A stretch of DNA of 64,000 bases from Streptomyces liliiviolaceus (lineage in GTDB: Bacteria > Actinomycetota > Actinomycetes > Streptomycetales > Streptomycetaceae), in NCBI RefSeq assembly GCF_018070025.1, contig NZ_JAGPYQ010000001.1:1-64000 (forward strand), written 5' to 3'. Each line of letters opens with the position of its first letter. Within the stretch, counting starts at the first letter, position 1. Both the position numbers and the translations under genes were made by a program. The notes beneath the pieces were generated by a model. It had not been told where the DNA came from, searched no databases, and saw only the letters and a program-made list of their open reading frames with translations. Shown one piece after another: positions 39,541 to 55,764 of this stretch.

Positions 39541-39596
39541 GCCCTGTCGTCAAATTCCCGCCTGCCGGGCGGACGTCGGGAATTTGACGACAGGAC
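39541..39596. mobile_element. 56-bp palindromic MITE-like element with CTAG flanks
   Basis: Left end GCCCTGTCGTCAAATTCCCG (39541-39560) and right end (39577-39596) are inverted repeats of 20 bp with one mismatch, around a 16-bp centre. Direct CTAG copies flank it (39537-39540 and 39597-39600), like a 4-bp target duplication. The left CTAG includes the stop codon of the preceding gene. The stem could also act as a terminator. Confidence 0.65.
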
Positions 39597-39736
39597 CTAG
39601 GGGGTCTCCGGGACCCGTCCGGCGCTCCCCCGGGCCGCCCGACGGGCGACGACGGTCCGCAAGGGCGGACGCGGGTTCCTCACCCGCACGGCCCGCGCCC
39701 CGAGCGGCCGGTCCTGTACGACCTCAGGATGGGTCT

Positions 39737-41287
39737 ATGCCGAACCCTTCCCCGCCGCGTGCCGCCGCCCTGACCGCCACCGCCCTTCTGCTGCTGGCGG
39801 CCCTCGCCGGATGCGGCGACGACGGCGGCTCCGCGGACGAGGACCTGTCGGCGCAGAAGCTCAGCTGGAAGGACTGTCCCGAACCGTCCGAGTCCGAGGG
39901 CGGCGGGGACGCCCCCTCGCCGCTGCCGGACGGCGGCACCTGGCAGTGCGCGACCCTGAAGGCGCCGCTGGACTGGGACAAGCCCAAGGGGGACACCATC
40001 GGTCTCGCGCTGATCCGCGCGCGGACGAGCGGCGCCGAGGACCGGCGCATCGGTTCACTGCTCTTCAACTTCGGCGGACCGGGCGGCTCGGGCGTCACCA
40101 CGCTCCCCGCGTTCGGCAAGGACTACGACGAGCTGCGTACCCGCTACGACCTGGTCAGTTTCGACCCGCGCGGTGTCGGCCGCAGCGCCGGTGTGAAGTG
40201 CGAGGACAGCGAACAGCTCGACGAGTACTTCCAGCAGGACGCCACCCCGGACGACGAAGCCGAGCAGCGGACTCTGCTGAACAGCACGAAGAACTTCAAC
40301 AAGGCCTGCGAGAAGAACTCCGGGAAGCTCCTCCCCCACGTACGCACCACCGACGCGGCCCGCGACATGGACCTGATGCGCCAGGTCCTCGGCGACGACG
40401 AGCTGCACTACTTCGGCATCTCGTACGGCACCGAACTGGGCGGCGTGTACGCGCACCTGTTCCCCGAGAAGGTCGGGCGGGCCGTCTTCGACGCGGTCGT
40501 GGACCCGACGCAGAACTCCGAACAGGGGTCCCTCGGACAGGCCAAGGGCTTCCAGCTGGCGCTCGACAACTTCGCCGAGGACTGCGCCTCCAAGGCCGAG
40601 GAGTGCCCCCTCGGCGACAGCGCGCAGGACGTCAAGGACCGGATCGCCACACTGCTCAAGGAACTCGACGGCAAACCGATCCCGGGCATCTTCCCTCGTC
40701 AGCTCACCCAGACCGCCGCCACGAGCGGCATCGCGCAGTCCCTGTACTCCAAGGAGTTCTGGGAGTACCTCACCGAAGGACTCCAGCAGGCGTACGACGG
40801 TGACGGCAAGGTTCTGATGCTGCTGTCCGACTCGATGAACGGACGCAACCAGGACGGCGAGTACAGCAACATCAGCGCCGCCAACGTCTCCATCAACTGC
40901 GCGGACGACAAACCGCGTTACACCGCCGCCGACGTGACGGCGAAGCTCCCGGAGTTCCGCAGGGCCTCGCCCGTCTTCGGCGACTATCTGGCGTGGGGCA
41001 TGGTCGGCTGCACCGACTGGGCGGTGGCGGGCGACGCCGACCACCCCGATGTGAACGCGCCCGGCTCCGCTCCGATCCTCGTGGTCGGAAACACCGGCGA
41101 CCCGGCGACCCCGTACGAGGGCGCCCGGAAGATGGTGGATGCACTGGGCAAGGGGGTCGGTGTGGAGCTGACGTACAAAGGCCAGGGGCACGGGGCGTAC
41201 GACAGCGGGAACAAGTGCGTGCGCGGCGCGGTGAACGGCTATCTGCTGAACGGGAAGGTCCCGCGGACCGGAACGGTCTGCTCCTGA
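39737..41287 (+). CDS. Secreted lipoprotein alpha/beta hydrolase (TAP-like), copy 1
   Basis: A 516-aa lipoprotein peptidase-like hydrolase. The signal peptide ends in lipobox LAGC (C26). The alpha/beta-hydrolase core follows, with oxyanion segment FNFGGPGGSG, nucleophile S229 in GISYGTELGG, and a C-terminal TAP-like domain ending with the catalytic His in GQGHGAYD. Streptomyces relatives (tripeptidyl aminopeptidase / SlpD-E type) remove peptides from the N termini of secreted proteins. ATG 39737 is used. It has a strong paralogue directly downstream, so a tandem duplication is evident. Confidence 0.9.
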   Translation: MPNPSPPRAAALTATALLLLAALAGCGDDGGSADEDLSAQKLSWKDCPEPSESEGGGDAPSPLPDGGTWQCATLKAPLDWDKPKGDTIGLALIRARTSGAEDRRIGSLLFNFGGPGGSGVTTLPAFGKDYDELRTRYDLVSFDPRGVGRSAGVKCEDSEQLDEYFQQDATPDDEAEQRTLLNSTKNFNKACEKNSGKLLPHVRTTDAARDMDLMRQVLGDDELHYFGISYGTELGGVYAHLFPEKVGRAVFDAVVDPTQNSEQGSLGQAKGFQLALDNFAEDCASKAEECPLGDSAQDVKDRIATLLKELDGKPIPGIFPRQLTQTAATSGIAQSLYSKEFWEYLTEGLQQAYDGDGKVLMLLSDSMNGRNQDGEYSNISAANVSINCADDKPRYTAADVTAKLPEFRRASPVFGDYLAWGMVGCTDWAVAGDADHPDVNAPGSAPILVVGNTGDPATPYEGARKMVDALGKGVGVELTYKGQGHGAYDSGNKCVRGAVNGYLLNGKVPRTGTVCS

Positions 41288-41413
41288 CGAACCTCGCAAA
41301 GCGGCAGGTCAGAGGGTTATCCACAGGGCTCCGCTGTGCTCGCGGAGATCTGCCTACTATGGCCTGACTGTCATCCGCGACATCGGCGGACGACGATGCG
41401 AGGGGGGAAGTTC

Positions 41414-42970
41414 ATGGCGCGTATCGCACGGTGGACGGCACTGGCCGCCGCCGCGTTGCTGGTGGCCGGCTGCAGCGGCTCGTCCGGGGACGACGGAGGG
41501 AACGACAAGAACGACGACGCGGGCAGGTCCCCGGGCGCGGCATCCTCCTCGGACACCGTGCCGGGGCTGCCCGCCTCGCTCACCTCGCAGAAGCTCGACT
41601 GGGACAAGTGCAAGGCCACCGAGACCGGCCCCGCGCCGGGCGGGGACTGGCGGTGTACGACGCTCAAGGTGCCGCTGGACTGGGCGAAGCCGGCGGGCGA
41701 GACCATCGGACTGGCCCTGATCCGCAGCGAGTCGAGCGGATCCTCGGACGACCGCATCGGCTCACTGCTGTTCAACTTCGGCGGCCCCGGCGGCTCGGGC
41801 GTCGACTATCTGCCGCCGTACGGGCCGACGTTCGCGAAGCTCCACGAGCGGTACGACCTGGTCAGCTGGGACCCGCGCGGTGTCGCGGCCAGTGAGGGCG
41901 TGCGCTGCCGCAGCGACAAAGAGGTCCAGGCGGCCGAAGCCGTCGACACCACCCCGGACACCTCCGCCGAGGAGACCGCGTTCCTCAAGGACGCCGCGGA
42001 CTTCGGCAAGGGCTGCCAGAAGTCCGCGGGCAAGCTCCTCGGACATGTCTCGACGACCGACACGGCCCGGGACATGGACCTGATGCGGCATGTCCTCGGC
42101 GACCGGAAGATGCACTACTTCGGCATCTCGTACGGCACCGAACTGGGCGGCGTGTACGCCCACTTGTTCCCCAAGAACGCGGGGCGGCTGGTCCTGGACG
42201 CGGTCGTCGACCCGAGCGCCGGGACGGTGGGCCACGCGGAGAACCAGACCAGGGGTTTCCAGCGCGCGCTGGAGGACTACCTCGAATCCACGGGCCGGGA
42301 CCCGAAGGAGGGCTCCCAGGAGATCGCGGCCCTGCTCAAGCGGATCGACTCGAAGCCGCTGGCGACCACGAGCGGCCGCGAGCTGACCCAGCAGCTCGCT
42401 CTCACCGGCATCATCTATCCGCTGTACAGCAAGTCGTCCTGGCCGGCTCTCACCAGCGCGCTCGCAGCGGCCGAGGACGGCGACGGAACGGAACTGCTCG
42501 CGCAGGCCGACGGCTACAACGACCGTGACGCCTCGGGCCACTACGGCACGACCACGCATTCCCAACGGGTCATATCGTGCTTGGACGACAAGGAGCGGCC
42601 GACGCCCGAGGAGGCGAAGAAGCGGCTCCCGGAGTTCAGGAAGATCTCGCCCGTGTTCGGGGACTCGATGGGCTGGGACACGGCCGGCTGGTGCCACGAC
42701 TGGCCGGTGGCCGGGCAGTACGAGACACCGGAGGTGAGCGCGCCCGGCGCGGACCCCGTCCTGGTGGTGGGCAACACCGGCGACCCGGCGACGCCGTACG
42801 AGGGTGCGCGCAAGATGGCGGACGAGCTGGGCAAGGGCGTCGGTGTGCAGCTGACCTGGAAGGGCGAGGGACACGGGGCCTACGGGAACGGGAGCGACTG
42901 CGTCGACAGCACGGTGGACGACTACCTGCTGGACGGATCGGTACCGGACGACGGCAAGGTCTGCTCCTAG
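41414..42970 (+). CDS. Secreted lipoprotein alpha/beta hydrolase (TAP-like), copy 2
   Basis: A 518-aa paralogue of the preceding gene: lipobox VAGC (C20), FNFGGPGGSG, nucleophile S239 in GISYGTELGG, and catalytic His in GEGHGAYG. The two share long identical stretches around the catalytic Ser and the NTGDPATPYEGARKM segment, but differ in the N-terminal linker and the insertion after the nucleophile. ATG 41414 is chosen because GAGGGGGGAAG sits 5-6 nt upstream; ATG 41396 would place that Shine-Dalgarno inside the gene. A 126-nt gap separates the copies. Ends before a hairpin terminator shared with moeZ. Confidence 0.9.
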   Translation: MARIARWTALAAAALLVAGCSGSSGDDGGNDKNDDAGRSPGAASSSDTVPGLPASLTSQKLDWDKCKATETGPAPGGDWRCTTLKVPLDWAKPAGETIGLALIRSESSGSSDDRIGSLLFNFGGPGGSGVDYLPPYGPTFAKLHERYDLVSWDPRGVAASEGVRCRSDKEVQAAEAVDTTPDTSAEETAFLKDAADFGKGCQKSAGKLLGHVSTTDTARDMDLMRHVLGDRKMHYFGISYGTELGGVYAHLFPKNAGRLVLDAVVDPSAGTVGHAENQTRGFQRALEDYLESTGRDPKEGSQEIAALLKRIDSKPLATTSGRELTQQLALTGIIYPLYSKSSWPALTSALAAAEDGDGTELLAQADGYNDRDASGHYGTTTHSQRVISCLDDKERPTPEEAKKRLPEFRKISPVFGDSMGWDTAGWCHDWPVAGQYETPEVSAPGADPVLVVGNTGDPATPYEGARKMADELGKGVGVQLTWKGEGHGAYGNGSDCVDSTVDDYLLDGSVPDDGKVCS

Positions 42971-43065: not shown

Positions 43066-44244
43066 CTAGTAGATCGGCTTCTCCGGCTCGATCTGGTTGA
43101 CCCAGCCGATCACACCGCCGCCCACGTGCACGGCGTCGGAGAATCCGGCCGACTTGAGGACCGCGAGGACCTCCGCGCTGCGGACACCGGTCTTGCAGTG
43201 CAGGACGATCTTCTTGTCCTGCGGCAGGGTCGCCAGGGCGGTGCCCATGAGGAACTCGTTCTTCGGGATCAGCTTGGCGCCGGGGATCGAGACGATCTCG
43301 TACTCGTTGATCTCGCGGACGTCGATGATCTCGATGTTCTCGCCGTCGTCGATCCACTCCTTGAGCTGCTTGGGAGTGATCGTCGAGCCGGCGGCCGCCT
43401 CCTGGGCCTCTTCGGAGACGACGCCGCAGAAGGCCTCGTAGTCGATGAGCTCGGTGACGGTCGGGTTCTCGCCGCAGACCGCGCAGTTCGGGTCCTTGCG
43501 GACCTTGACCTGGCGGTACTGCATCTCCAGGGCGTCGTAGATCATCAGGCGGCCGAGGAGCGGCTCGCCGATGCCCGCGAGGAGCTTGATGGCCTCGTTG
43601 ACCTGGATGGAGCCGATGGACGCGCACAGCACGCCCAGGACACCGCCCTCGGCGCAGGAGGGGACCATGCCGGGGGGCGGGGGCTCCGGGTAGAGGCAGC
43701 GGTAGCATGGCCCGTGCTCGGACCAGAAGACGGAGGCCTGACCGTCGAAGCGGTAGATCGAGCCCCAGACGTACGGCTTGTTCAACAGCACGCACGCGTC
43801 GTTGACCAGGTAGCGGGTCGCGAAGTTGTCCGTGCCGTCGACGATCAGGTCGTACTGGCTGAAGATGTCCATCACGTTCTCGGCTTCGAGCCGCTCTTCG
43901 TGAAGGACCACGTTCACGTAGGGGTTGATGCCGAGCACGCTGTCGCGGGCCGACGCCGCCTTGGAGCGGCCGATGTCCGCCTGGCTGTGGATGATCTGGC
44001 GCTGCAGGTTCGACTCGTCGACCTCGTCGAACTCCACGATGCCGAGCGTGCCCACGCCCGCGGCGGCCAGGTACATCAGCGCCGGCGAGCCCAGGCCGCC
44101 GGCGCCCACACAGAGCACCTTGGCGTTCTTCAGCCGCTTCTGCCCGTCCATGCCCACGTCGGGGATGATCAGGTGGCGGGAGTACCTGCGGACCTCGTCT
44201 ACGGTGAGCTCAGCAGCTGGCTCGACCAGGGGTGGCAGCGACAC
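43066..44244 (-). CDS. moeZ: MoeZ: sulfur-carrier adenylyltransferase with rhodanese domain
   Basis: A 392-aa two-domain protein. The MoeB/ThiF E1 domain (1-250) has GAGGLGSPALMYLAAAGVG, DESNLQRQ and zinc cysteines CYRC and CAVC. The rhodanese domain (about 285-392) has the active Cys in LHCKTGVRS. It activates ubiquitin-like sulfur carriers (MoaD, CysO, ThiS type) as acyl-adenylates and thiocarboxylates. It is therefore the likely partner for MoaE at 11136-11597. ATG 44244 is the start. In M. tuberculosis the homologue (Rv3206c) is followed by the DUF3152 gene, but here about 11.7 kb of other genes intervene. Confidence 0.95.
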   Translation of the reverse strand: MSLPPLVEPAAELTVDEVRRYSRHLIIPDVGMDGQKRLKNAKVLCVGAGGLGSPALMYLAAAGVGTLGIVEFDEVDESNLQRQIIHSQADIGRSKAASARDSVLGINPYVNVVLHEERLEAENVMDIFSQYDLIVDGTDNFATRYLVNDACVLLNKPYVWGSIYRFDGQASVFWSEHGPCYRCLYPEPPPPGMVPSCAEGGVLGVLCASIGSIQVNEAIKLLAGIGEPLLGRLMIYDALEMQYRQVKVRKDPNCAVCGENPTVTELIDYEAFCGVVSEEAQEAAAGSTITPKQLKEWIDDGENIEIIDVREINEYEIVSIPGAKLIPKNEFLMGTALATLPQDKKIVLHCKTGVRSAEVLAVLKSAGFSDAVHVGGGVIGWVNQIEPEKPIY

Positions 44245-44307: not shown

Positions 44308-45057
44308 TCATTCCGAGACACCCGTTCCGATCCGCGAGACGAGTTCGTCCCAGTAGCCGGGCAGGCTCTCCCAGGGGCCGGCCGAACCTCCGCGGTCCGT
44401 GCGGTCCGTGAAGTAGATCGTCGAGGCTCCCTGCCAGCGGGCGATGCGCAGAGCCTCGTCGAGATGGCCTCGGGGCATGCCGTGGACGAAGTGGCAGAAG
44501 CGCTCCGGCGGGTATTCGGCGGTCCACTCCGCCACCTGCGACCAGCGGTAGTCGCTCCAGGGCCCGGAGAAGGTCACCAGCTGGTCGGCGGTCTCGGCGT
44601 AGCCGGGATACGGGTGGGTGCCGTGGCCGAGGACGATGTGGCCGTCGCCGAGGAGCGCCCGCAGGGTGTCGCTGGTGCGCCGGACCTCCGGGAGGGCTGT
44701 CCGCTCCGTGGGACAGCGGTCCAGGAGGAAGCCGTCGACCTGATACCAGTCGAGATAGCGGTGTGCCTCGGAGACGACTTCGCCGAAGGCGCGGGCGCCG
44801 TAGGTCACGTCCAGGTGGCCGAGTACGCGGACGCCCGCGTTGCGCAGGCGTCCGGCGGCCTCCAGGCAGTGGGGGTCGGGGCGGGCGCCGGGGCCGTCGG
44901 AGACGTTCAGGACGACCCAGTGCAAGGGGGTCCCGGGGCGGGTGAGGCCGCCCCATTCGACCGGGGCGACCAGCGGGTGCGCATAGCCGGGGACGCCGAA
45001 GCCGATCCTCAGGTCCGTGCTCGCGGTGCCCGTCGGCGTGCTGGTCAGATACGGCAT
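44308..45057 (-). CDS. Spherulin-4 / GH135-like glycosidase
   Basis: A 249-aa protein of the spherulin-4 family (TIM-barrel, GH135-like). GFGVPGYAHP, WVVLNVSDGPG, AGVRVLGHLDVTYGAR and WYQVDGFLLDRCPT match the family's strand motifs. Characterised fungal members (Sph3) cleave alpha-1,4-GalNAc/Gal polymers. The conserved Asp of the FLLD strand is kept, but the usual following acidic residue is Arg (LLDRC), so activity is uncertain. No signal peptide is seen, so it is cytoplasmic or exported otherwise. ATG 45057 overlaps the epimerase stop by 13 nt: last gene of the polysaccharide-type operon. Confidence 0.78.
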   Translation of the reverse strand: MPYLTSTPTGTASTDLRIGFGVPGYAHPLVAPVEWGGLTRPGTPLHWVVLNVSDGPGARPDPHCLEAAGRLRNAGVRVLGHLDVTYGARAFGEVVSEAHRYLDWYQVDGFLLDRCPTERTALPEVRRTSDTLRALLGDGHIVLGHGTHPYPGYAETADQLVTFSGPWSDYRWSQVAEWTAEYPPERFCHFVHGMPRGHLDEALRIARWQGASTIYFTDRTDRGGSAGPWESLPGYWDELVSRIGTGVSE

Positions 45058-46004
45058 GCGGCCTCCATCCAGATGTCGGCGAGGGATTCCTCAAGGTTGA
45101 TCCGGGGCCGCCAGCCGAGCCGGTCGCGTGCGGTGCGCACGTCGGCCTGCTGCCAGCTGCCGCAGCCGTCCGGGTAGGGGTACGCGGCGGGGGCCGTGTG
45201 CTCTGTTTCGGAACGGGGGTGACCGATGGATGGCCGGGCGGGGCCGGGAACTCCGTCGAGTTCGTGGAGGGCTCCCCCGTAGCCGGCGACGCGTGCGAGG
45301 ACGGAGGCGGCGTCGCGCAGACGTACGGCACGACCGGATCCGATGTTGATGACGCCCTGCGCGGCGGAGAGGGAGGCGGCATGGACGGCACGGGCTACGT
45401 CGCGTACGTCGATGAAGTCGCGTTGGACACCGAGGCCGGCGAGTTTGAGGTCGCCGTCGCCGGACTGCATGGCGCGGCGCATCGCTTCGGCGAGCCGGCC
45501 GAGCGGGGAGCCCGCCGGGGTGCCGGGCCCGCACGGCGAGAACACCCGCAGGACGACGGCGTCCAGGCCGGAGCCGAGGACCAGTTCGGTGGCGGCGAGC
45601 TTGCTCACGCCGTAGGGGCCGCCGGGGCGGGGCACCGCGTCCTCGGCCGTGGAGGATCCGGGCTGGCTGGGCCCGTACTCCGCGCCGCAGCCGATCTGTA
45701 CGAGGCGTGCACCGCACCCGCTGCGGCGCAGTGCCTCACAGACGGTGGCGACGGCGACGGTGTTGTGCCGGGTGAGCTCGCGGGCGCCGCCACGGGTGGT
45801 ACCGGCGCAGTTGACGACGACCCCGGGGTGCACCGCGTCGAGGAAGCGGGTGAGCGCTCCCGGGCTGCCACTGGCGAGGTCGAAGCGCACGTCCGCGTCG
45901 TCGCCCCGGCCGAGCGCGGTGAGCTGCACGGCCGGGTCGGCGAGGAGACGGTCGGCGACGAATCGGCCGAGGTATCCGTTGGCTCCGATCAGCAGCACCC
46001 TCAT
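45045..46004 (-). CDS. NAD-dependent nucleotide-sugar epimerase/dehydratase
   Basis: A 319-aa extended SDR. The NAD loop GANGYLG (8-14) lies at the N terminus, VVNCAGTT marks beta-4, and the catalytic YGVSK supplies Tyr/Lys. RVFSPCGPG and FIDVRDVARA are typical of sugar-nucleotide epimerases. The likely product is a UDP-sugar interconverted at C4, for example UDP-Gal/GalNAc; this is inferred from family and context. ATG 46004 overlaps the stop of the preceding small ORF (ATGA), and its own stop overlaps the spherulin-like gene by 13 nt. Confidence 0.88.
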   Translation of the reverse strand: MRVLLIGANGYLGRFVADRLLADPAVQLTALGRGDDADVRFDLASGSPGALTRFLDAVHPGVVVNCAGTTRGGARELTRHNTVAVATVCEALRRSGCGARLVQIGCGAEYGPSQPGSSTAEDAVPRPGGPYGVSKLAATELVLGSGLDAVVLRVFSPCGPGTPAGSPLGRLAEAMRRAMQSGDGDLKLAGLGVQRDFIDVRDVARAVHAASLSAAQGVINIGSGRAVRLRDAASVLARVAGYGGALHELDGVPGPARPSIGHPRSETEHTAPAAYPYPDGCGSWQQADVRTARDRLGWRPRINLEESLADIWMEAACRI

Positions 46005-46141
46005 CGGGCGGCTCCCGGGGCGGACTCTCCGATGCGGAGGGTGATCATCTTGCGTTCTCCTTCAGGGTGGTGCCATGGGTCGTACGGAAGGCCCGCGGTG
46101 TCGGCCCCGCGGGAAGGGGGGTGCTCGGCGCGGGGATCCAT
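46001..46141 (-). CDS. Small 46-aa ORF coupled to the epimerase gene
   Basis: A 46-codon ORF fills the gap between the membrane-protein gene and the epimerase and overlaps the epimerase start (ATGA). An internal ATG at 46048 has a strong AAGGAG 8 nt upstream and would give a 15-aa peptide (MITLRIGESAPGAAR) with the same stop. The longer form has only AGGA upstream of GTG/ATG 46144/46141. The product is polar, Pro/His/Arg-rich and of unknown function. It may mainly serve to deliver ribosomes to the epimerase. Confidence 0.5.
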   Translation of the reverse strand: MDPRAEHPPSRGADTAGLPYDPWHHPEGERKMITLRIGESAPGAAR

Positions 46142-46173
46142 CACGAATCCTGGAGCCGAGAGTCGGTGGCGGG

Positions 46174-47907
46174 TCACGGCGTGTCCCCGTGCGCCGCGTG
46201 GGCGGAGGCCCGGGTGAGGGTCCTGGTCGCGTGGATCAGGAGGACGAGCGCCGCGGCCCCGCACGCGAGAGCCGGGATCGCGCCCGCTCCCCAGGCGTCG
46301 GCCACGGTCTCGACGGGCACGGCCAGCGCCTCGCAGCCGGGAAGGCGGCTTCCGAAGACGCTCAGGAGGGCCAGCGCCTCGGCCACGCCCGCGGCCGCGA
46401 GCATGACGGCGGGGGCGTGCCTGAATCCGTGCACGGTGAGAAGCCGGGCGAGCAGGAGGAGCGCGCCGAGGGCCCCGGCCCCGGCGTAGGCGGCGGACTC
46501 GTCCAGTACCGCCCCGCTCAGGGCGAGCAGGCCGCCGAGGACGCAGAGGAACAGGACGAAGACGCCCAGGAGCAGGGGTTTCACGGAGGACGCGAACTCC
46601 TCCAGGGCGCGGCTGGTGACGAGGCGGCGGCGCGCACGCACCGTGAAGAGGTGCGCGCACCAGGCCGCCGGGGCGCAGGCCGCGCTCAGGGCCAGGACGG
46701 ACGCGAGGGCGATCGGCCAGGAGCTGCCGGGGCTGCCGGTGGGCGGTCCGTCGGGGCCGCCCTCGATGGCGGCGGCGAGCAGGCCGTCGCCGAGGAGGGC
46801 GTAGGCGACGAGCCAGTAGGTCCACGCGCGGGTGGACGGCGTCGGGGACCACGGCCGCGTGGCGTGCAGGGGGCCGCGGCTGCGGGCCGCGCGTACGGCG
46901 AGGGCCACGGCGAGTACGCCGACGACGGTCACCGCGAGGCGCGGCCGGCCCTCGGTGTAGCGCAGTCCGGTCACGACAGCCGCGCACAGGGCGCCCGGCA
47001 GCAGGGTGAGTACGGCCCAGTCGGCGTGCGCCTTCGGGGTGTCGGGTGTCTCGGGCCGGGGTGCCGTGTCGCCGGCGCGGGGCACTCGCGCGTACATCTC
47101 CTCCGCGAGGGAGAAGACGTCCCGGTGCCGGAAGTGGGTGGCGGTCCGGTCGGTCACACCGTGCGCCTCCAGGGCCGCCGCGATCTCCAGCGGGTCCACC
47201 GCGCGCTCGCACAGTTGCCGGTGGCGGTGCATCAGGGCCTTCACCGGGTCGGCGTCGCCGCGGGGGGCGGAGGGCGTGCGGTCGGCGACGTCAGGCTCGC
47301 CGAGCTGTCCGTCGGCCTGGTCGTGAACCGGGCCGAGGGCAGCGACCGCGTCCACCGGACCGGGAGCCTGCCGGTCGGAGATCCGCCGACCGAGGTGCTG
47401 CTGGTCGACGGTCTGCTGGTCGGCGTCCGGCCACGCGGGAACCTTCGGCTCGGGAACCGGCCGGTCGGAGACGTGCGCCTCGGGAACCGGCCGGTCGGAG
47501 ACGTGCGGCTCGGGAACCGACCGGTCGGAAGCCTGCTCGTCCGCAGCCGGAGGGGACGCCTCCGGCGTGACGGTCACGGCGTCCCACGCCAGCCGGGCGT
47601 ACGTGGCCGTCGAGGACCCCTGCCTCGGTCCCGGCCGGGACCCGTGCTGGGCCGGGTCCTTCGCCCAGCTGGGCCGTGGGACCGTCGGTCCCGGTTCGCC
47701 CGGGGGGCGTGCGTCCGCGATTCTCGACTCGCCCAGCTGGACGTCGACCACACGGGTCTCGCCGGGCTGGATGTCCACCACCTTGATCTCGCCCACCTCG
47801 GCGTTCATGCCCCGCACGTCCCCGAGGTCTCCCGACCGCCCGGCCTCCGTGTCCTCGGTGGGGCCGCCGGAGGTCCGGTCCGCCGCTTTGATCCGTCGCG
47901 CGCTCAC
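46174..47907 (-). CDS. Polytopic membrane protein of the polysaccharide locus
   Basis: A 577-aa protein that starts at GTG 47907, overlapping the glycosyltransferase stop (GTGA). About residues 1-215 are disordered, with near-identical tandem units HVSDRPVPE (coded around 47450-47530). A helical segment (ALMHRHRQLCERAV to HRDVFSLAEEMYARVPR) follows, and about eight membrane helices fill residues 300-575. The helices include LLLGVFVLFLCVLGGLLAL. I do not recognise a family. It could be the export/polymerisation partner of the adjacent PelF-like glycosyltransferase, like PelG or the membrane half of fungal Gtb3, but no sequence signature proves this. Confidence 0.75.
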   Translation of the reverse strand: MSARRIKAADRTSGGPTEDTEAGRSGDLGDVRGMNAEVGEIKVVDIQPGETRVVDVQLGESRIADARPPGEPGPTVPRPSWAKDPAQHGSRPGPRQGSSTATYARLAWDAVTVTPEASPPAADEQASDRSVPEPHVSDRPVPEAHVSDRPVPEPKVPAWPDADQQTVDQQHLGRRISDRQAPGPVDAVAALGPVHDQADGQLGEPDVADRTPSAPRGDADPVKALMHRHRQLCERAVDPLEIAAALEAHGVTDRTATHFRHRDVFSLAEEMYARVPRAGDTAPRPETPDTPKAHADWAVLTLLPGALCAAVVTGLRYTEGRPRLAVTVVGVLAVALAVRAARSRGPLHATRPWSPTPSTRAWTYWLVAYALLGDGLLAAAIEGGPDGPPTGSPGSSWPIALASVLALSAACAPAAWCAHLFTVRARRRLVTSRALEEFASSVKPLLLGVFVLFLCVLGGLLALSGAVLDESAAYAGAGALGALLLLARLLTVHGFRHAPAVMLAAAGVAEALALLSVFGSRLPGCEALAVPVETVADAWGAGAIPALACGAAALVLLIHATRTLTRASAHAAHGDTP

Positions 47908-49778
47908 CGCGCCCCCTCCCCCGCGGGTACGGGCTCGCCCGGAGCGCTTCCCAGCGGGACACCCCGTACCGGCGGTCCCGCCGCCCAGCCCGGGCCCGGT
48001 CTCCCGGCCGCCGGCCGCGCCTCCGGTTCCGGCCACCGGCCCGGCACCTGTGCCTCGACGGGTATGGCGAACGGAAGGGGCTCGCCCGAGGCGTCGACCA
48101 CGTCCCGCCGGACCGGGCAATGCGAGACGATATCGAGGTAAATGCCGTGAAATGCCATGATGTTCTGCTCGACGGTGAAGAGTTCGAGGGCCCGGGCGCG
48201 GGCCGCGGCACCGAGGCGCGACCGGCGTTCCGGATCGCGCAGCAGGGCGACGCAGGCCTCGGCGAGCGCCCGCGGGTTGCGCGGCGGAACGACGAGCCCC
48301 GTACCGCCGATGACCTCGACGACCGCGCCGACGTCCGTGGAGACCGTGGCGCGGCCGGCGAACATCGCTTCGACGAGGCTGATGGGGAAGCCCTCGACGA
48401 CGCTGGACAGGACGACGAGGGCGCCTGCCGCATAGGCCTCGGGGAGGGTCGGTACGTCGGGTCCGCCGATCTCCTCGAAGGAGACCGGGTTGTCGCCGAC
48501 GGCGTGCACGCGCTCGGCCTCGTCGGGGAAGAGTTGCGAGGCCAGCGCCTTGCAGTGCGCCAGATGGGTCGCGCCCTCCGGGCCGTCCGCGGGTGCGCCG
48601 ACGATCCGCAGCCGCGCCTTCGGCTCCTCCTTGCGGATCTCCGCGAAGGCGTTCAGCAGCGAGGCCAGATCCTTGGCGGGCTCGATGCGTCCGACCCACA
48701 CGAGGGTGTACGGGTCGGCGTGTTCGGCGCTCTCGCCCACCTCCGAGAAGCGGGACGCCTCCATGCCGGGGTAGACGGTACGGATTTTGGTCCGGTCGGC
48801 GCCGCAGCGCTCCTGCCAGCGGCGGGCGTGCGTGTTGCCGGGCGTGATGACCGTGGCCTGCCGGTAGGCCTCCGCGGCGAGCCGGCCGTGGAACGCCGCG
48901 AGCAGGGCCCGCGCCGGCGCCGACGCGGCGTGCCCCCGAAGATCCTCGCGGGGGCCCAGGTAGTGCGCCCGCAGCTGTACTCCGTACTCCGTGACCAGCA
49001 GGGGTACGCCCGAGAAGTGGCGGGCGAGCAGTCCCGGCAGGGCCGCGGCGCCGCCGGACGTGGCGTGGCACAGGTCGACCGAGCCGAGCCCGTCGTCGCC
49101 GTACCAGTCGAGGGAGAGGGGGCGCAGTGCGCGTTCCACCTGGGCGGCGACGGTGAGCAGGTCCGGCACGCGGGCAGTGCGCGCGGCGCGCAGTGCGCCG
49201 GGCGCGCGGCAGGCGCGTTCGAGGGCGCACACCGCCGCCTCGGAGCGCAGGGCGCCGACCATGCCGCCCTCGTCGCGGGCCAGTTCGGCGAGCCCGTACA
49301 GCGCGCTGCCGAAACGGTCCGCCGCACCGGCCGAGGCGCCCTCGCCCCGACCCCCGGCGTGACCATCGGCCCCGGCGTGACCATCGGCTCCGGCGAAACC
49401 CCCGGACGCCGTATCGGACATCACACCGGACACCACGCCGGGCAGGGCACCCGACACCGCATCGGGCGCGGCGCCGCCGAGGGCGTCCGGCGCGCACATG
49501 GCCGCCGCCAACTCCGCGTAGCACTCGGCGAATCGGCGCCGGGCCCGTCGCCCGTAGGCCACGCCGTCGTCGTTCGCCGTCCAGAGCGGGGCGGTGCGCA
49601 CCCGGCTCACCTGGGAGGGGAGCTGGATCCAGCCCTCGTCCTCCTGCTGCTCACTGCGGCTCAGCGCGTAGATGTCGAACTCGTGCTGTCCGAGCCCGCG
49701 CACGAGCCGGTCGCACCAGAGCCTGGCCTCACCGCTCACATACGGATAGCCACCCTCCGTAAGCAGTCCTATGCGCAC
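47904..49778 (-). CDS. PelF-like glycosyltransferase (DUF3492 + GT4)
   Basis: A 624-aa GT-B glycosyltransferase. The N terminus RIGLLTEGGYPYVSGEARLW, with WCDRLVRGL, is the DUF3492/PelF signature. The GT4 half shows VWVGRIEPAKDL, DVPTLPEAY, the EX7E motif in EGFPISLVEAM and VVPPRNPRALAEA. A Gly/Ala/Asp-rich insertion sits at about 135-180, and the C-terminal 60 residues are Pro/Gly-rich. PelF polymerises UDP-GalNAc-type sugars in Pel synthesis. The start is GTG 49778, with GGGAG 7 nt upstream. It heads a five-gene minus-strand operon with sugar epimerase and spherulin-like genes. Confidence 0.88.
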   Translation of the reverse strand: MRIGLLTEGGYPYVSGEARLWCDRLVRGLGQHEFDIYALSRSEQQEDEGWIQLPSQVSRVRTAPLWTANDDGVAYGRRARRRFAECYAELAAAMCAPDALGGAAPDAVSGALPGVVSGVMSDTASGGFAGADGHAGADGHAGGRGEGASAGAADRFGSALYGLAELARDEGGMVGALRSEAAVCALERACRAPGALRAARTARVPDLLTVAAQVERALRPLSLDWYGDDGLGSVDLCHATSGGAAALPGLLARHFSGVPLLVTEYGVQLRAHYLGPREDLRGHAASAPARALLAAFHGRLAAEAYRQATVITPGNTHARRWQERCGADRTKIRTVYPGMEASRFSEVGESAEHADPYTLVWVGRIEPAKDLASLLNAFAEIRKEEPKARLRIVGAPADGPEGATHLAHCKALASQLFPDEAERVHAVGDNPVSFEEIGGPDVPTLPEAYAAGALVVLSSVVEGFPISLVEAMFAGRATVSTDVGAVVEVIGGTGLVVPPRNPRALAEACVALLRDPERRSRLGAAARARALELFTVEQNIMAFHGIYLDIVSHCPVRRDVVDASGEPLPFAIPVEAQVPGRWPEPEARPAAGRPGPGWAAGPPVRGVPLGSAPGEPVPAGEGAR

Positions 49779-49968: not shown

Positions 49969-51765
49969 TCATACGGCGGCCAGTTGTTGGCGGGCGGCTC
50001 GACGGGTCGCGCGACGGGCGGCCGCGACCGCCGGATCGAGCGCGGGGACGGCGGCGAGGAGCTGCCGTGTGTACGGGTCCCGCGGCGACTCGTAGACCTC
50101 GTCGACGGGTCCGTACTCGACGATCCGGCCGCCGCGCATCACCGCCACCCGGTCGCTGACCTGGCGTACGACGGCGAGGTCGTGGGCCACGAAGACCAGG
50201 GCGAGGCCGAGTTCCCGCCGCAGTTCGCCGAGCAGGGCGACCACCTGGGCCTGGGTGGTGACGTCCAGTGCGGAGACCGGTTCGTCGCACACGATGACCC
50301 TCGGGTCGGCCGCCAGAGCACGTGCGATGCCGACGCGTTGGCGCTGGCCGCCGCTGAACTCGTGCGGGTAGCGGTCGTAGTGCGCCCCTTCGAGCCCCAC
50401 GCGCTCCAACAGCTCCCGTACGCGTCCCCGCACGCCCCCTTCGTCCCGCTCGCCCCGCGCCCGAAGAGGGTCGGCGATCGACTCGCCCACGCTGCGGCGG
50501 GGGTTGAGGGAGGAGACGGGGTCCTGGAAGACCATCTGCACATCGGGGCGTACCCCGCCGCCGGGGGTGATGCGCCCCGCCGTCGGTTCCAGCAGGCCGA
50601 CCAGCATGCGGCCCAGCGTCGTCTTGCCGCTGCCGCTCTCGCCCACGATGCCGAGCGTCTCGCCCCGGCGGACCGTGAGCGACACGTCGTCGACGGCCGC
50701 GAACGCCCGCTTCCCGCGCCCGAACTCGCGCCGCAGCCCGACCGCTTCCAGCACGACCTCGTCCGCCGCCGCGCCGGACGTCACGCTCGCCGCCACGCCG
50801 GACGTCACGCTCGCCGCCGCGCCGACCGCCGCACCGGTCTCCACACCGCCTGGCGCGTCCCCCCTCGACGCCGACGCGTCCACCCTTGGCGCATCCACCC
50901 TCGGGACCGCGCCCAGCAGTTCGCGTGTGTAGGGCTGCGCCGGCGCGCCGAGGACCGTGGCGACGGGGCCGTGTTCGACCACGCGTCCGTGCCGCATGAC
51001 CAGGATCTCGTCGACGCTCCCGGCGGCGACGCCCACGTCGTGCGTGACGAGCAGGAGCCCCATTCCGGTCTCCTCCCGCAACGTGTGGAGCAGGTCGAGG
51101 ATCTGGGCCTGGACGGTCACGTCGAGCGCGGTGGTCGGCTCGTCGGCGATCAGCAGATCGGGCTCGCAGGCCAGCGCCATCGCGATGAGGGCACGCTGGC
51201 GCATCCCGCCGCTGAACTCGTGCGGGCGCGAACGGGAGCGCCGGACCGCGTCCGGGATCCCGACACGGTCCAGCACCTCCACGGCACGCGCGCGGGCAGC
51301 CCGCCGCGAGGCACGCGTGTGCACGCGGTACACCTCGGCGATCTGGTCCCCGATCGCGTAGTACGGGTCGAGGGACGACAGCGGGTCCTGGAAGACCATT
51401 GCGGCCCGCGCGCCGCGCAGCCGCCGCAGTTCGTCGTCCGACGCCCGCTGTACGTCGATCCCGGCGACCTCGACCGAACCGCCGACGTACGCGCCCGTGC
51501 CCCGGTGCAGTCCCAGCAGGGCCGAGGCGACCGTGGACTTGCCCGAGCCGGACTCGCCGACCAGCGCGAGCGCGGCGCCCCGCGCCAGCCGGAAGGAGAG
51601 CCCGTCGACGGCCCGCAGTTCGCCGAACCCGACGGTGAGATCGCTCACTTCGACCAGGCTCACGCCCGCACCACCCGTACTACCCGCACCACTCATGCCA
51701 CCCGCACCACCCGTGCCTCCCGTACTACCCGCACCACCCATGCCCCCCGCATCACCCGCACTCAT
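49969..51765 (-). CDS. Fused dual-domain ABC ATPase (DppD-DppF type)
   Basis: A 598-aa protein carrying two complete ABC ATPases in one chain. Domain 1 (about 37-290) has GESGSGKST, the signature FSGGMRQR and LLIADEPTTALD. Domain 2 (about 330-580) has GESGSGKTT, FSGGQRQR and VIVCDEPVSALD. Each ends with the oligopeptide-importer C-terminal PYTRELL / PYTRQLL segment. It energises the di/oligopeptide importer encoded upstream. ATG 51765 overlaps the permease stop (ATGA) and gives a Gly-rich repetitive N terminus of 34 residues. GTG 51663 (MSLVEVSDL) is an alternative start without that extension. Last gene of the operon. Confidence 0.92.
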   Translation of the reverse strand: MSAGDAGGMGGAGSTGGTGGAGGMSGAGSTGGAGVSLVEVSDLTVGFGELRAVDGLSFRLARGAALALVGESGSGKSTVASALLGLHRGTGAYVGGSVEVAGIDVQRASDDELRRLRGARAAMVFQDPLSSLDPYYAIGDQIAEVYRVHTRASRRAARARAVEVLDRVGIPDAVRRSRSRPHEFSGGMRQRALIAMALACEPDLLIADEPTTALDVTVQAQILDLLHTLREETGMGLLLVTHDVGVAAGSVDEILVMRHGRVVEHGPVATVLGAPAQPYTRELLGAVPRVDAPRVDASASRGDAPGGVETGAAVGAAASVTSGVAASVTSGAAADEVVLEAVGLRREFGRGKRAFAAVDDVSLTVRRGETLGIVGESGSGKTTLGRMLVGLLEPTAGRITPGGGVRPDVQMVFQDPVSSLNPRRSVGESIADPLRARGERDEGGVRGRVRELLERVGLEGAHYDRYPHEFSGGQRQRVGIARALAADPRVIVCDEPVSALDVTTQAQVVALLGELRRELGLALVFVAHDLAVVRQVSDRVAVMRGGRIVEYGPVDEVYESPRDPYTRQLLAAVPALDPAVAAARRATRRAARQQLAAV

Positions 51766-52760
51766 GCCAGTACCACCCGTCGGTCGGCCACCGCGTAGAG
51801 CACGTCCGCGAGGGCGTTGGCGATGACGACGAAGAACCCGACGACCAGGACCATCCCGACCACGACGGGGAGGTCGACGACATCGACGGCGTGGACCAGT
51901 TCCCTTCCGATGCCGGGCAGCCCGAAGAGCGTCTCGGTGAGGACCGCGCCGCCGACGGCCGATCCGACGTTGTTGGCGTTCAGCGCGATGACCGGGGCGA
52001 ACGCCCCGCGCAACGCGTGCCGCCAGATGACCGACCGCTCGCCGACGCCGTACGCGCGGAAGGTCCGGATGTGGTCCTCGGCCAGGGTCTCCAGCATCGA
52101 CGACCTGGTCAGCCGGGCGAACGCCGCGGCCTCGATGAGCGCGAGGGAGAGCCAGGGCAGCAGCAGGTTCCACGCCCACTGTTCGGGGTCGTCGGTGAGG
52201 TTCACGTACTGCGGGAAGGGCAGCAGTTCCAGTTCGCCGCAGACGACGATCATCAGGACCAGGCCGATGACGAAGACGGGTGTGGCCACGCCCACGAGCG
52301 TGATGCCGGTCAGCACCCGCTCGGTGAGCCGTCCGCGCCGCCACGCCGAGAGCACGCCGGTGCCGACGCCGAGGATCAGCCAGATCACCATCGCACCGAA
52401 CACGAGCGACAGGCTGACCGGCAGCTTCGTGAGGATCAGCTCGGTGACCTGCTGGTCGCTCTGGTACGACAGCCCGAGGCAGGGCGCCGGGCAGTGCTGC
52501 ACCGCGGTGCCGGTCGAGTAGTCCTGGCCGGCGACGAGCCCTTCCAGGAAGTGCCAGTAGCGCACGTACAGCGGGTCGTCGAGGCGTAGTTGCTCGGAGA
52601 CCTGCTGGACCTGGACGGGCGAGCAGCGCGGGCCGCAGGTGATCTGGGCGACGTTGCCGGGGGTGACGTAGAAGACGACGTAGATGATCACCGAGATGGC
52701 GAAGAGGGTGACCAGGACGCCGACGACCCGGCGCAGGACGAACCCCGTGAACCCACTCAT
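51762..52760 (-). CDS. ABC importer permease, DppB type
   Basis: A 332-aa integral membrane permease of the di/oligopeptide importer family. The N-terminal FVLRRVVGVLVTLFAISVII helix, a periplasmic loop with paired cysteines (TCGPRC and HCPAPC), about six membrane segments, and the EAA-type loop (RTFRAYGVGERSVIWRHALR) facing the ATPase are visible. It overlaps the preceding permease (ATGA, 52757-52760) and the following ATPase (ATGA). It normally precedes the DppC-type gene, but here the order is reversed. Confidence 0.92.
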   Translation of the reverse strand: MSGFTGFVLRRVVGVLVTLFAISVIIYVVFYVTPGNVAQITCGPRCSPVQVQQVSEQLRLDDPLYVRYWHFLEGLVAGQDYSTGTAVQHCPAPCLGLSYQSDQQVTELILTKLPVSLSLVFGAMVIWLILGVGTGVLSAWRRGRLTERVLTGITLVGVATPVFVIGLVLMIVVCGELELLPFPQYVNLTDDPEQWAWNLLLPWLSLALIEAAAFARLTRSSMLETLAEDHIRTFRAYGVGERSVIWRHALRGAFAPVIALNANNVGSAVGGAVLTETLFGLPGIGRELVHAVDVVDLPVVVGMVLVVGFFVVIANALADVLYAVADRRVVLA

Positions 52761-53884
52761 GAGGCACCTCCCCGCCCCGACCCACCGGACACACCTGACA
52801 CATCTGACACACCGGAGCCATCGGCCCCATCGGCCGCGGCAACCGCCCCAGCCACCCCAGCCCCCTCAACCGCCACAGCGGACCGCGTCACCTTCGCCTC
52901 CCGCCGCCGCCCCGTCCCGACCCGCAGCCGTGAGGCCGCGCGCGGGTCGAGGGCCGTGCGGACCCCGTCGCCGAGGACGGTCAGCGCGAGGACCGTCACG
53001 AAGAGCGCGCCCGCCGGCAGCAGCAGATACTGCGGCGCGGCCTGGTACCAGACGTCGGCGGCGGTGAGCATCTGCCCCCACGACGGTGTCGGCGGCTTCA
53101 CGCCCACCCCCAGGAAGGACAGGGCCGCCTCGACGGTGATGTTCTGCGGGATGAGGATCGCCGCGTACGTGATGACGGGCGCCGCGAGCCCCGGCAGCAG
53201 CTCTCGCCGGGCGATCCGCCAGGTGCCCCAGCCGCTGAGCCGGGCGGCGGAGACGTAGTCCAGCCCCTTGAGGGTGAGCGTCTGCGCGCGGACGATCTTC
53301 GCGATGTTGCCCCAGGCGATCAGCCCGATGACGCCTGCGACGAGGACGGGCCGCGGGAATCCCGACGGCACGATCGCGAGCAACGCGAGGGACATGATCA
53401 TCAGCGGCAGGGCGACGATGATGTCGGTGAACCGGCTCAGCAGCTGGTCGACCCAGCGGGTGCCGAGCGCGGCCGCGACTCCGACCACCACGCCGATGAC
53501 GATCTGCGCGACGGTCGCGGCCAGCGCGACACCCAGTGAGACCCGGGCCCCGTACACGAGCCGTGCGAACAGGTCGCGGCCGGTCTGCGGCTCGACGCCG
53601 AGCCAGTGGTCGCCGCTCATGCCGCCGAACGATCCGACCGGCACACCGCCGCGCGCGGAATCGATCAGATCCGGGTGGTACGTGGTCGGATCCTGACCCT
53701 CGATCGCGGTGAGCAGCGGTGCGGCGAGCGCGACCAGGACGAGCAGGGCGACGACGGCCGCCGCCGCGAGGGCGGCGCGCTGTGCGCGCAGCCGCCGCCA
53801 GAACTGACGAGCCCCCGAGGCCCCCGGCGCGACGGAGAGGTCCGCCGCGCCGGGGGCCTGGGAGGCGACGAGTACGTCGCTCAC
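52757..53884 (-). CDS. ABC importer permease, DppC type
   Basis: A 375-aa permease partner. An OppC-type N-terminal helix (about 36-60), LGVEPQTGRDLFARLVYGAR and the EAA-loop segment DYVSAARLSGWGTWRIARRE identify the DppC family, with about six membrane segments. After the last helix comes a 45-residue Gly/Ser/Val/Ala-rich low-complexity tail encoded by simple repeats near 52760-52870. Start ATG 53884 lies 4 nt after the end of the binding-protein gene. Confidence 0.92.
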   Translation of the reverse strand: MSDVLVASQAPGAADLSVAPGASGARQFWRRLRAQRAALAAAAVVALLVLVALAAPLLTAIEGQDPTTYHPDLIDSARGGVPVGSFGGMSGDHWLGVEPQTGRDLFARLVYGARVSLGVALAATVAQIVIGVVVGVAAALGTRWVDQLLSRFTDIIVALPLMIMSLALLAIVPSGFPRPVLVAGVIGLIAWGNIAKIVRAQTLTLKGLDYVSAARLSGWGTWRIARRELLPGLAAPVITYAAILIPQNITVEAALSFLGVGVKPPTPSWGQMLTAADVWYQAAPQYLLLPAGALFVTVLALTVLGDGVRTALDPRAASRLRVGTGRRREAKVTRSAVAVEGAGVAGAVAAADGADGSGVSDVSGVSGGSGRGGAS

Positions 53885-53888
53885 GGCG

Positions 53889-55613
53889 CTACTTCACCGA
53901 GACCTGCGAGATGTCCAGCACCCCGGTCCAGTCGCTGATCACGATGTTCTTGATGTCCTTGCCGTACAGGCGCTTGTAGACCGGGTGGAACAGCGGCACG
54001 GTCAGCGCCTGCTCGCCGATCTTCTTGTCGAGGGCGCCCCAGCGGGTGGCGGCCTCGTCGAGGTCGGTCAGCTTGTTGATCGCGTCGATCTCGGCGTTGA
54101 CCGACTTGTCGTCGAGGAAGCCGGTGTTGAAGTTGGCGCCGTCCTTGACGATCTGGCGGCCGTCGAAGATCGGGGCCAGGAAGGGCCCGCCCGAGGGCCA
54201 GTCGGCACCCCAGTGCGCGAGGAAGAAGCCGGGCTCGGTCTTCGCGCTGTGGATCTTGTCGCTGTAGTCGTTGTCCTCCAGGCCCTGGAGCTTGACGGTG
54301 ATCCCGGCCTTCTTCAGGGCGTCCTGGATCGCGGTCGCTATCTCGGGGCTGGTCTCGAAGTCCTTGGCGTTGGAATGGGTGAGGGTCACGGTCAGGCCCT
54401 TCGCGTGCCCGGCCTCCTTCAGCAGCTCCTTCGCCTTGGCCGCGTTGCCTGACTTGCCGGCCGGGAAGTGGTCGTAGGCGGTGTAGCCGAAGGACTTCTG
54501 GTTCGGCAGGTACGTCGTCGCGGCCTCGGCCAGCGAGGAGCCGCCCGCCGCGTTGATCACGGAGGTGCGGTCGATGGCGTACGAGATCGCCTGGCGCACC
54601 TTCGGGTCGTCGAACGGCTTCACCTTCGGGTTGAAGGCGATGTAGTTCGTGTAGCCGAAGTGCCCGGTGCCGACCCGCGCGGCCAGTTCCTTGTCACCGC
54701 TGACCTTGGCGAGTTCGGCGGGTCCGAGGTTCGTGTCGGTGGTCACGGCGGCGGCGTCCGCGCCCTGCGAGGAGGACAGCCGCTGGTTGATGACGGACGA
54801 GTCGAGCCCGGAGCGTACGTCGATCCTGTCGGGGTAGGCCTTGCGCTCGGCGTCCGTCGAGGCGGACCAGTGCGTATTGCGCTCCAGGGTCAGCCGCTCG
54901 CCGTCGTTCTCGTTCTTGACGACCTTGTACGGACCGGACGAGACCGGGTGCTCCTCGTACTTCGTACCGGTGTCCTTGGCCTTCGGGACGGGCGCGAACT
55001 GCGTCTGCGTGGCGAGGTACGGGAACTCGCCCTCGGGCTTGTTCAGATGGAAGACGATGGTCTGCTCGTCGGGCGTCTCGATGGAGTCGAGGCCCTTCTT
55101 GTCCTTGTAGGGCCCCTGGTAGTCGGCGCCGCCGATCAGCCAGTCCCGCAGGTAGGGCGCACCGCCGGAGAGTTCGGCCGCGAAGGACCGCTCGATGCCG
55201 TACTTGATGTCGGCCGAGGTGATCGCGCTGCCGTCCTCGTACGTGAGGCCCTTCTTCAGCGTGTACGTCCACACAGTCGCGTTCTTGCTGGGGCGGCCGG
55301 TGTCCGTGGCGAGGTCGGGGACGACCTTGGCGCCCTCGGCCCCGTCCTCGCGGTTGCGCGTGGTGAGCGTACGGAAGACGAGCGAGGGGACGTTTCCGCC
55401 GCCGGAGGTGTAGAGCCGGGCGGGGTCGAAGTCCTGCTGCGGGTTGGAGTTCAGGACCGTGAGGGTGCCGCCCTTGGCCGGCTTCGCGTCCGCGCCGCCG
55501 GACGTGGCCTTGGCATCGTTGTCCTCCGGCCCGCAGGCGACTGCACCCGCTGCCACGGCGAGGCTGACGGATACGGCGGCCAGACGGCGCGCTGTGACGG
55601 ACGATTGACGCAT
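53889..55613 (-). CDS. Peptide-binding lipoprotein of ABC importer (SBP family 5)
   Basis: A 574-aa solute-binding lipoprotein. A twin basic N terminus, hydrophobic core and lipobox AVAC (C27) place it on the outer face of the membrane. The mature protein is family 5 (DppA/OppA type), with FDPARLY, YTLKKGLTYEDGSAITSADI, KVRQAISYAIDR and FLAHWGADWPSGGP typical segments. It captures peptides or related solutes for the permeases downstream. ATG 55613 has GAGGGG 9 nt upstream. The transcript leader of about 280 nt carries a leader peptide and a terminator-like hairpin. Confidence 0.93.
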   Translation of the reverse strand: MRQSSVTARRLAAVSVSLAVAAGAVACGPEDNDAKATSGGADAKPAKGGTLTVLNSNPQQDFDPARLYTSGGGNVPSLVFRTLTTRNREDGAEGAKVVPDLATDTGRPSKNATVWTYTLKKGLTYEDGSAITSADIKYGIERSFAAELSGGAPYLRDWLIGGADYQGPYKDKKGLDSIETPDEQTIVFHLNKPEGEFPYLATQTQFAPVPKAKDTGTKYEEHPVSSGPYKVVKNENDGERLTLERNTHWSASTDAERKAYPDRIDVRSGLDSSVINQRLSSSQGADAAAVTTDTNLGPAELAKVSGDKELAARVGTGHFGYTNYIAFNPKVKPFDDPKVRQAISYAIDRTSVINAAGGSSLAEAATTYLPNQKSFGYTAYDHFPAGKSGNAAKAKELLKEAGHAKGLTVTLTHSNAKDFETSPEIATAIQDALKKAGITVKLQGLEDNDYSDKIHSAKTEPGFFLAHWGADWPSGGPFLAPIFDGRQIVKDGANFNTGFLDDKSVNAEIDAINKLTDLDEAATRWGALDKKIGEQALTVPLFHPVYKRLYGKDIKNIVISDWTGVLDISQVSVK

Positions 55614-55730
55614 GGGAGGAAACCCCTCGGAGAATTCGGCGAACACCGCGCGCGAACAGGGCACGGCGTGAGGAAGTAATCGCGGAATCGCCCCGAGGGC
55701 ACGCTGGCACAAGAGCACGAGGGCGCTCTG

Positions 55731-55764
55731 GAAAACACCCGGCACCGTGATTCCGGTGCCGGTG
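55731..55764 (-). terminator. Putative attenuator hairpin ahead of the ABC operon
   Basis: Read on the minus strand, CACCGGCACCG pairs with CGGTGCCGGGTG (one bulged G, 6-nt loop) and is followed by TTTTC. It lies 39 nt after the leader-peptide stop and 118 nt before the binding-protein start, the place for a transcription attenuator. Confidence 0.65.

Follow-up and report, generated by a model that had tools for sequence, protein, structure and literature searches.

A reduced relative of galactosaminogalactan- and Pel-type clusters beside moeZ in Streptomyces liliiviolaceus and its possible reuse

Does a compact set of genes that resembles a polysaccharide cluster still make a polysaccharide? 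The question is raised by a locus of Streptomyces liliiviolaceus (genome label G000), in the 64,000-nt stretch analysed here (the window; contig NZ_JAGPYQ010000001.1, positions 1 to 64,000). The locus comprises four genes, all on the minus strand, encoding a 624-aa PelF/DUF3492-type GT4 glycosyltransferase (GT; 47904..49778), a 577-aa membrane protein (MP; 46174..47907), an extended short-chain dehydrogenase/reductase (SDR) resembling GDP-4-keto-6-deoxymannose reductase (EPI; 45045..46004) and a GH135/spherulin-4-like protein that is a probable pseudo-hydrolase (SPH; 44308..45057), followed by moeZ. An earlier note had placed these four genes correctly and had proposed a reduced, possibly undescribed system for a polymer of N-acetylgalactosamine and galactose (GalNAc/Gal). 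The answer to which the evidence leans, by a little, is a different one: a repurposed module centred on EPI, descended from an eroded complete cluster, and not a working polymer exporter. The descent, the losses of residues and of genes, and the shift in constraint are supported.

Many Streptomyces carry, away from moeZ, a paralogous complete cluster (L099-L113, L154-L233) with an Agd3-like deacetylase, a GT, a MOP-fold MP, a LegB-like dehydratase, a nucleotidyltransferase, an EPI-like SDR, an intact GH135 protein and a GH114 protein. The Agd3-like assignment was based on position and on the Pfam family Agd3_CE, matched by 11/14 members at E values up to 1 (best 1.6e-6); CBM87_Agd3 was matched in 2/14 (in L118 at 21.8 bits, below the cut-off of 27.6), the single Agd3-like copies of L100 and L154 matched no Pfam family, and PDB searches with the protein and its profile found no Agd3. 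Homology and trees showed that the GT, SDR, MP and SPH of the locus share descent with agd3/galactosaminogalactan (GAG)-type operons. A search of the S. liliiviolaceus genome for Agd3 homologues gave none, with three control genomes positive, and the locus itself contained no PelD, PelE or PelA deacetylase, in agreement with the earlier note.

The complete set also occurs at the moeZ site. In L145, which comes from a different genus of the Streptomycetaceae, all eight parts stood near moeZ (the Agd3 homologue was cut at the edge of the locus, and a whole copy was found by genome search). L145 fell inside the window clade of the EPI tree (77 chosen rows; support 100/100), and its EPI was 64% identical to that of the window, compared with 43-50% for the complete-cluster paralogues among the matches listed. 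In the GT tree (40 chosen rows) it lay between the groups, separated from the complete clusters with support of 99/98 and from other window-type copies with 100/99. An intermediate state was seen in L152, which kept the EPI Ser and the SPH Glu222 discussed below and in which genes for Agd3, the LegB-like dehydratase, the nucleotidyltransferase and GH114 were not found; within the retrieved stretches, none of these four was present in 59/60 loci from other genera. Because L145 combines a complete cluster near moeZ with an EPI that groups with the window family, the window locus looks to have been eroded in place, with four genes gone and MP shorter. Good support for the proposed relationship to GAG/Pel-type clusters comes from the paralogous complete cluster and from L145 at the same site, and the locus is indeed reduced.

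SPH matched PF12138 (Spherulin4) at 86.9 bits (cut-off 30.2) and was aligned by sequence comparison to Sph3 (5d6t/5c5g) at 35.8 bits (E 4.9e-8). Inspection by eye showed no signal peptide in SPH and gave no sign of secretion for any enzyme of the locus. The catalytic residues of Sph3 are Asp166, Glu167 and Glu222, called putative in the excerpted text of PMC10485009. At these positions the window SPH has Asp-Arg-Ser. Asp166 and Glu222 were present in every complete-cluster copy (67/67 and 19/19, i.e., 86/86), while within Streptomyces, window included, Glu222 was present in 0/33 copies and Asp166 in 21/33, and Glu222 outside the genus in 2/26. Decay at residue 167 was considered and dropped; since Arg or Gln is found there in complete clusters too, only the loss of Glu222, and that of Asp166 in 12/33, count as decay. 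The expected homology to Sph3 was thus recovered by sequence, but the catalytic Glu222 is replaced by Ser, and a hydrolase function is unsupported; SPH is probably a pseudo-hydrolase. Its gene was not found in 3/36 Streptomyces and 34/60 other-genus loci. A supposed loss in 11 Streptomyces genomes without a Pfam match was rejected, as tblastn recovered SPH in 9/11. In a class-wide search PF12138 was present in 25/296 genomes; none of the five outside Streptomyces had EPI at 1e-40, and their spherulin-4 genes belonged to clusters, complete or partial, or lay on short contigs. Near the Agd3-like gene of L118 there was a second spherulin-4 protein (L118:6704-7933) with an apparent signal peptide (by eye), unlike the others that were read.

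The glycosyltransferase fared differently. GT matched PF11997 (DUF3492) at 101 bits (cut-off 23.3) and, barely above its cut-off, the NCBIfam PelF model NF038011 (112 bits, cut-off 100; best stretch, model 173-489), so that both profiles confirmed it as a PelF-type enzyme and it was not placed with GT4 enzymes outside Pel. Arg, Lys and both Glu of the EX7E active site are present in the window GT, although a stretch that reads EHGVYLRE in 80/80 Streptomyces complete-cluster copies has become EYGVQLRA. The four active-site residues were found in all complete-cluster copies (two sets, 80/80 and 18/18) and were kept in 31/36 copies of the genus, window included. In the other genera of the family they were kept in 24/54 and lost in 29/54, with one copy split between frames (L264); 28 of the 29 losses fell in genera of one EPI clade (99/96), g120 standing apart.

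EPI matched PF01370, with GxxGxxG, Tyr131 and Lys135 present and Cys106 where the catalytic Ser was expected. Its best PDB relative was 2pk3, a GDP-4-keto-6-deoxymannose reductase (122 bits with the family profile), and it scored only 32 bits against the GalE profile (cut-off 262), the Ser-Tyr-Lys triad being incomplete. An identity as GalE or Uge3 was therefore rejected, and the sugar epimerase function once assigned to EPI is unsupported, its resemblance being to 4-keto reductases. Complete clusters had Ser in 76/76 and 13/13 copies (two sets); Cys was found in 35/35 scored copies of the genus (L037 was left unscored) and in 28/60 copies of other genera, and the replacement was a single change on the EPI tree (97/85). 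Tyr and Lys were kept throughout, except for one Phe (g118). Because the EPI paralogues in complete clusters are accompanied by a LegB-like dehydratase and a nucleotidyltransferase, the ancestral EPI probably completed the synthesis of an NDP-6-deoxy sugar and did not act as the fungal UDP-Gal/GalNAc epimerase does.

MP matched no Pfam family, the PelG model included. It consists of a variable N-terminal stretch of ~215 residues, a conserved soluble motif (~218-277) and then about 7-8 hydrophobic segments; its description as an eight-helix protein is approximately right, with 7 hydrophobic segments in a simple scan and ~8 helices in a low-confidence model. Identity to the complete-cluster MP was 29-38%, with the soluble motif in common. 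The MOP fold was found for that homologue, whereas the model of the window MP was poor (pLDDT 67) and a structure search with it returned weak, mixed matches only; the soluble motif came out helical and with high confidence (block pLDDT 90-96). From the shared motif onward, the window MP has 339 residues against a median of 401 in complete clusters, and 7 hydrophobic segments against mostly 7-10. An identification as PelG by sequence was rejected, there being no PF16933 match. In the whole genome nothing above the PF16933 cut-off of 29 was found (the T. maritima control was positive), and the complete-cluster genomes G199, G347 and G220 likewise had no PelG profile match. The soluble motif, DPLEIAAALEAHGVTDRTA...HRDVFSLAEEMYARVPR (46174-47256), precedes the membrane part, is common to the complete-cluster MOP-fold protein and matched no Pfam family. 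It was near invariant across 19 sequences, which had been cut by that motif.

Selection pressure was estimated as omega by a simple counting method on non-independent pairs. For EPI it was 0.125 within Streptomyces, 0.066, 0.149 and 0.248 for three further genera, and 0.381 in complete clusters, sampled as the first 30 loci, of which 29 had an EPI gene. The genus and complete-cluster values were 0.337 vs 0.231 for GT and 0.316 vs 0.345 for SPH, and moeZ had 0.140; GT copies with lost active-site residues had 0.437 and 0.444. A nine-sequence run gave 0.076 for EPI, 0.118 for moeZ, 0.263 for GT, 0.330 for SPH and 0.411 for MP. Within the locus, constraint was thus tightest on EPI, at about the level of moeZ. 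Constraint has moved from GT to EPI, and the whole MP is the least constrained.

The locus is widespread at this site. MP was matched in 23/41 genomes, comprising 23/25 of the genus (own genome included) and 0/16 outside it. In the 20 Streptomyces loci picked by MP match (from 20 of the 22 further MP-positive genomes), the order moeZ, SPH, EPI, GT was identical in 20/20, and MP was recovered by tblastn in 19, one locus (L037) being partly masked. EPI was present in 31/31 Streptomyces genomes drawn for another search (79-100% identity), and the locus is probably in most Streptomyces genomes. Across the family, EPI was found at E 1e-40 in 114/121 genomes, 113 of them with the window type (at least 58% identity) and G396 with the paralogue type only; it was absent at this threshold in seven genomes from two genera. 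Of 85 window-type loci from other genera, 60 were retrieved, not at random and some with short or contig-ended stretches; they contained moeZ and EPI in 60/60, GT in 54, MP in 56 and SPH in 26; GT was not found in 6/60, some of these at contig ends, and MP was not found in 4/60.

According to the reading that we slightly favour, a complete GAG/Pel-type exopolysaccharide cluster would have stood beside moeZ in the ancestor of the Streptomycetaceae and been eroded in place. The genes for the Agd3-like deacetylase, GH114, LegB-like dehydratase and nucleotidyltransferase would have been lost, the MOP-fold MP shortened, and the GH135 protein deprived of its catalytic Glu, its gene sometimes being deleted. 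EPI would have been retained under strong selection, usually with the soluble motif of MP, and the GT of Streptomyces would have been retained with its active-site residues mostly intact. EPI may bind or reduce a nucleotide sugar in a module of cytosol and membrane, to which SPH, where present, may contribute by binding a sugar ligand without cleavage; MP would tether the parts to the membrane, and an intact GT could transfer a sugar to some acceptor that is not a growing GAG/Pel chain. The absence of polymer export, the formation of a complex and every substrate named here are what we infer. A bolder version, put forward tentatively and with somewhat less than even confidence, is that the Streptomycetaceae turned an exopolysaccharide operon into a domesticated core module that makes no polymer. 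Three of its enzymes would have turned into pseudo-enzymes or altered enzymes, depending on the lineage, and the reductase-like SDR would have come to serve as its indispensable centre, sensor-like or modifying, with the soluble motif left from a flippase as its link to the membrane.

Several points weigh against repurposing. The window GT retains Arg, Lys and EX7E and may still polymerise; all four residues stand in the 31/36 copies of the genus mentioned above, and one of the other five, L035, is possibly an alignment fault. EPI with Cys106 might still be active. The residues by which SPH is called inactive are putative in their source. There are hydrolases that work with a displaced acid/base. 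MP evolves faster than the other genes (omega 0.41) and was not found in the 4/60 family loci noted above; since its shortening is modest and its model poor (pLDDT 67), a loss of transport cannot be claimed. A long open frame at another place in the genome (G000:C1:4185054-4185428) gives a partial PelG match of 25.7 bits (cut-off 29), and two GH114 (PF03537) proteins above cut-off lie far from the locus (G000:C2:1553690-1554304 and G000:C1:6067956-6068594). Complex formation is suggested by gene order, the omega values come from the counting method described, and L145 and L140 are long branches in the EPI tree.

Among the alternatives, an unlikely one is that the locus is a decaying relic, functionless apart perhaps from EPI as an ordinary housekeeping reductase. 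Parts and residues have been lost piecemeal in several lineages, with SPH not found in 3/36 and 34/60 loci, GT in 6/60, MP in 4/60 and EPI lacking at threshold in seven of the 121 family genomes, and omega reaches 0.44 for GT and 0.41 for MP. However, EPI and moeZ occur together in 60/60 other-genus loci, with GT in 54/60; the residue-lost GT copies have omega near 0.44 and not 1, and in 17 genomes from a single genus their reading frames are still long and open; SPH has omega 0.32 in Streptomyces; and the MP motif is near invariant in the 19 sequences cut by it.

It is rather improbable that the locus is a compact GalNAc/Gal polymer system in working order, in which GT acts as the synthase, MP exports the product, EPI epimerises UDP-sugars and SPH trims the polymer by hydrolysis. 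Such a system would account for the intact active site and DUF3492/PelF homology of the window GT, the continuing purifying selection on GT (omega 0.337), the kinship to complete clusters and the only moderate shortening of MP. Yet Glu222 is missing in 33/33 Streptomyces SPH copies, no signal peptide was seen in SPH, EPI is closest to 4-keto reductases, not GalE, and carries Cys, and its paralogues keep company with a LegB-like dehydratase and a nucleotidyltransferase. There is no deacetylase in the locus and no Agd3 or above-cut-off PelG in the genome, and sister genera in which 29/54 GT copies are without the active site keep the locus. The proposal of a GalNAc/Gal polymer system is therefore unsupported, and the analogy with the fungal GAG parts list, sound as to ancestry, is probably wrong as to present function. 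That the window locus and the complete clusters were acquired separately, the cluster of L145 having arrived near moeZ by chance and no erosion in place having occurred, is very unlikely, despite the long branch and unsure exact place of L145, its meeting with L140, its position between groups in the GT tree and the ~2.5 kb with a bioB-like gene (by eye) between its cluster and moeZ, given the 64% identity of its EPI to that of the window, its place in the window clade and the intermediate L152.

The GTGA overlap of GT and MP and the 13-nt overlap of EPI and SPH are present in the sequence, but MP and EPI, reported to overlap at ATGA, are 169 nt apart; that ATGA joins the EPI start to the stop of a 15-codon open reading frame (ORF; 46001..46048, minus strand). 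Because an MP-like frame reaches the EPI ATGA in a few relatives (L141, L148, L152, L250 and L252, by eye), these 15 codons may be what remains of the MP tail. A stop in another frame overlaps the EPI start in 91/92 window-type loci with a called start, and the EPI start of the complete-cluster L145 is without the overlap; the near-universal ATGA suggests kept translational coupling, which the ORF possibly retains from a once longer MP. The conserved neighbour that marks the site, moeZ (43066..44244, minus strand; ThiF and rhodanese domains, PF00899 and PF00581), lies outside the cluster. Further along, at 39584-42970, are two tandem genes resembling secreted alpha/beta-hydrolase peptidases (by eye); both homologues stand near the site in most relatives, a few have one place matching both, and in two none was seen. 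Upstream of GT, oligopeptide-type ABC transporter genes occupy 49969-55745, with a match to the ATPase in 13/20 relatives' loci, one of them partial.

A search of open-licence papers recognised no work concerning the window locus, which is consistent with its being undescribed. Its interest centres on the erosion series and on EPI. At this one site, natural states grade from a complete galactosamine-type polymer cluster down to a stripped remnant, with catalytic residues of a glycosyltransferase, a hydrolase and an SDR lost or changed in various lineages, and they provide material for studies of operon reuse. EPI, constrained about like moeZ, becomes a clear target for study. Spherulin-4/GH135 and PelF annotations at this site should not be taken to indicate polymer synthesis; the separate complete clusters are better candidates for galactosamine polymers in Streptomyces. 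They are likewise candidates in connection with the S. griseus endogalactosaminidase mentioned in excerpts of PMC7229062 and PMC12054363.

Among known systems, GDP-4-keto-6-deoxy-D-mannose reductase (RMD, 2pk3) is of the same SDR type as EPI, with Tyr and Lys kept, but its catalytic Ser is Cys in Streptomyces-side EPI copies. With the fungal galactosaminogalactan cluster (uge3, sph3, gtb3, ega3, agd3) the locus shares an SDR, a PelF-like GT and a protein resembling GH135, gtb3 being presumably related to PelF; unlike that cluster, it has no Agd3 or Ega3, its SDR is reductase-like, and its SPH is without Glu222 or a visible signal peptide. PelG belongs to the MOP fold, as does the MP homologue of complete clusters. 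A PelF-type GT with a membrane partner also characterises the pel operons of P. aeruginosa and Gram-positive bacteria, the latter given in the excerpted sources as pelDEA-DA-FG (PMC7112168) and as pelF-pelG-only loci (PMC7112194); in contrast, the window locus is without PelD, PelE and PelA deacetylase, and its MP has no PelG Pfam match. Finally, agd3-containing exopolysaccharide operons have been published for bacteria (Bamford et al., 2020; PMC7229062), and in the excerpted text they comprise a GT and a multi-span membrane protein, commonly GH114, and spherulin-4 in some Actinobacteria. The complete Streptomyces clusters belong to the same kind. The window locus differs from them in being without the deacetylase, GH114, dehydratase and nucleotidyltransferase, in an SPH without the catalytic Glu, and in its fixed place beside moeZ in nearly all family members examined.

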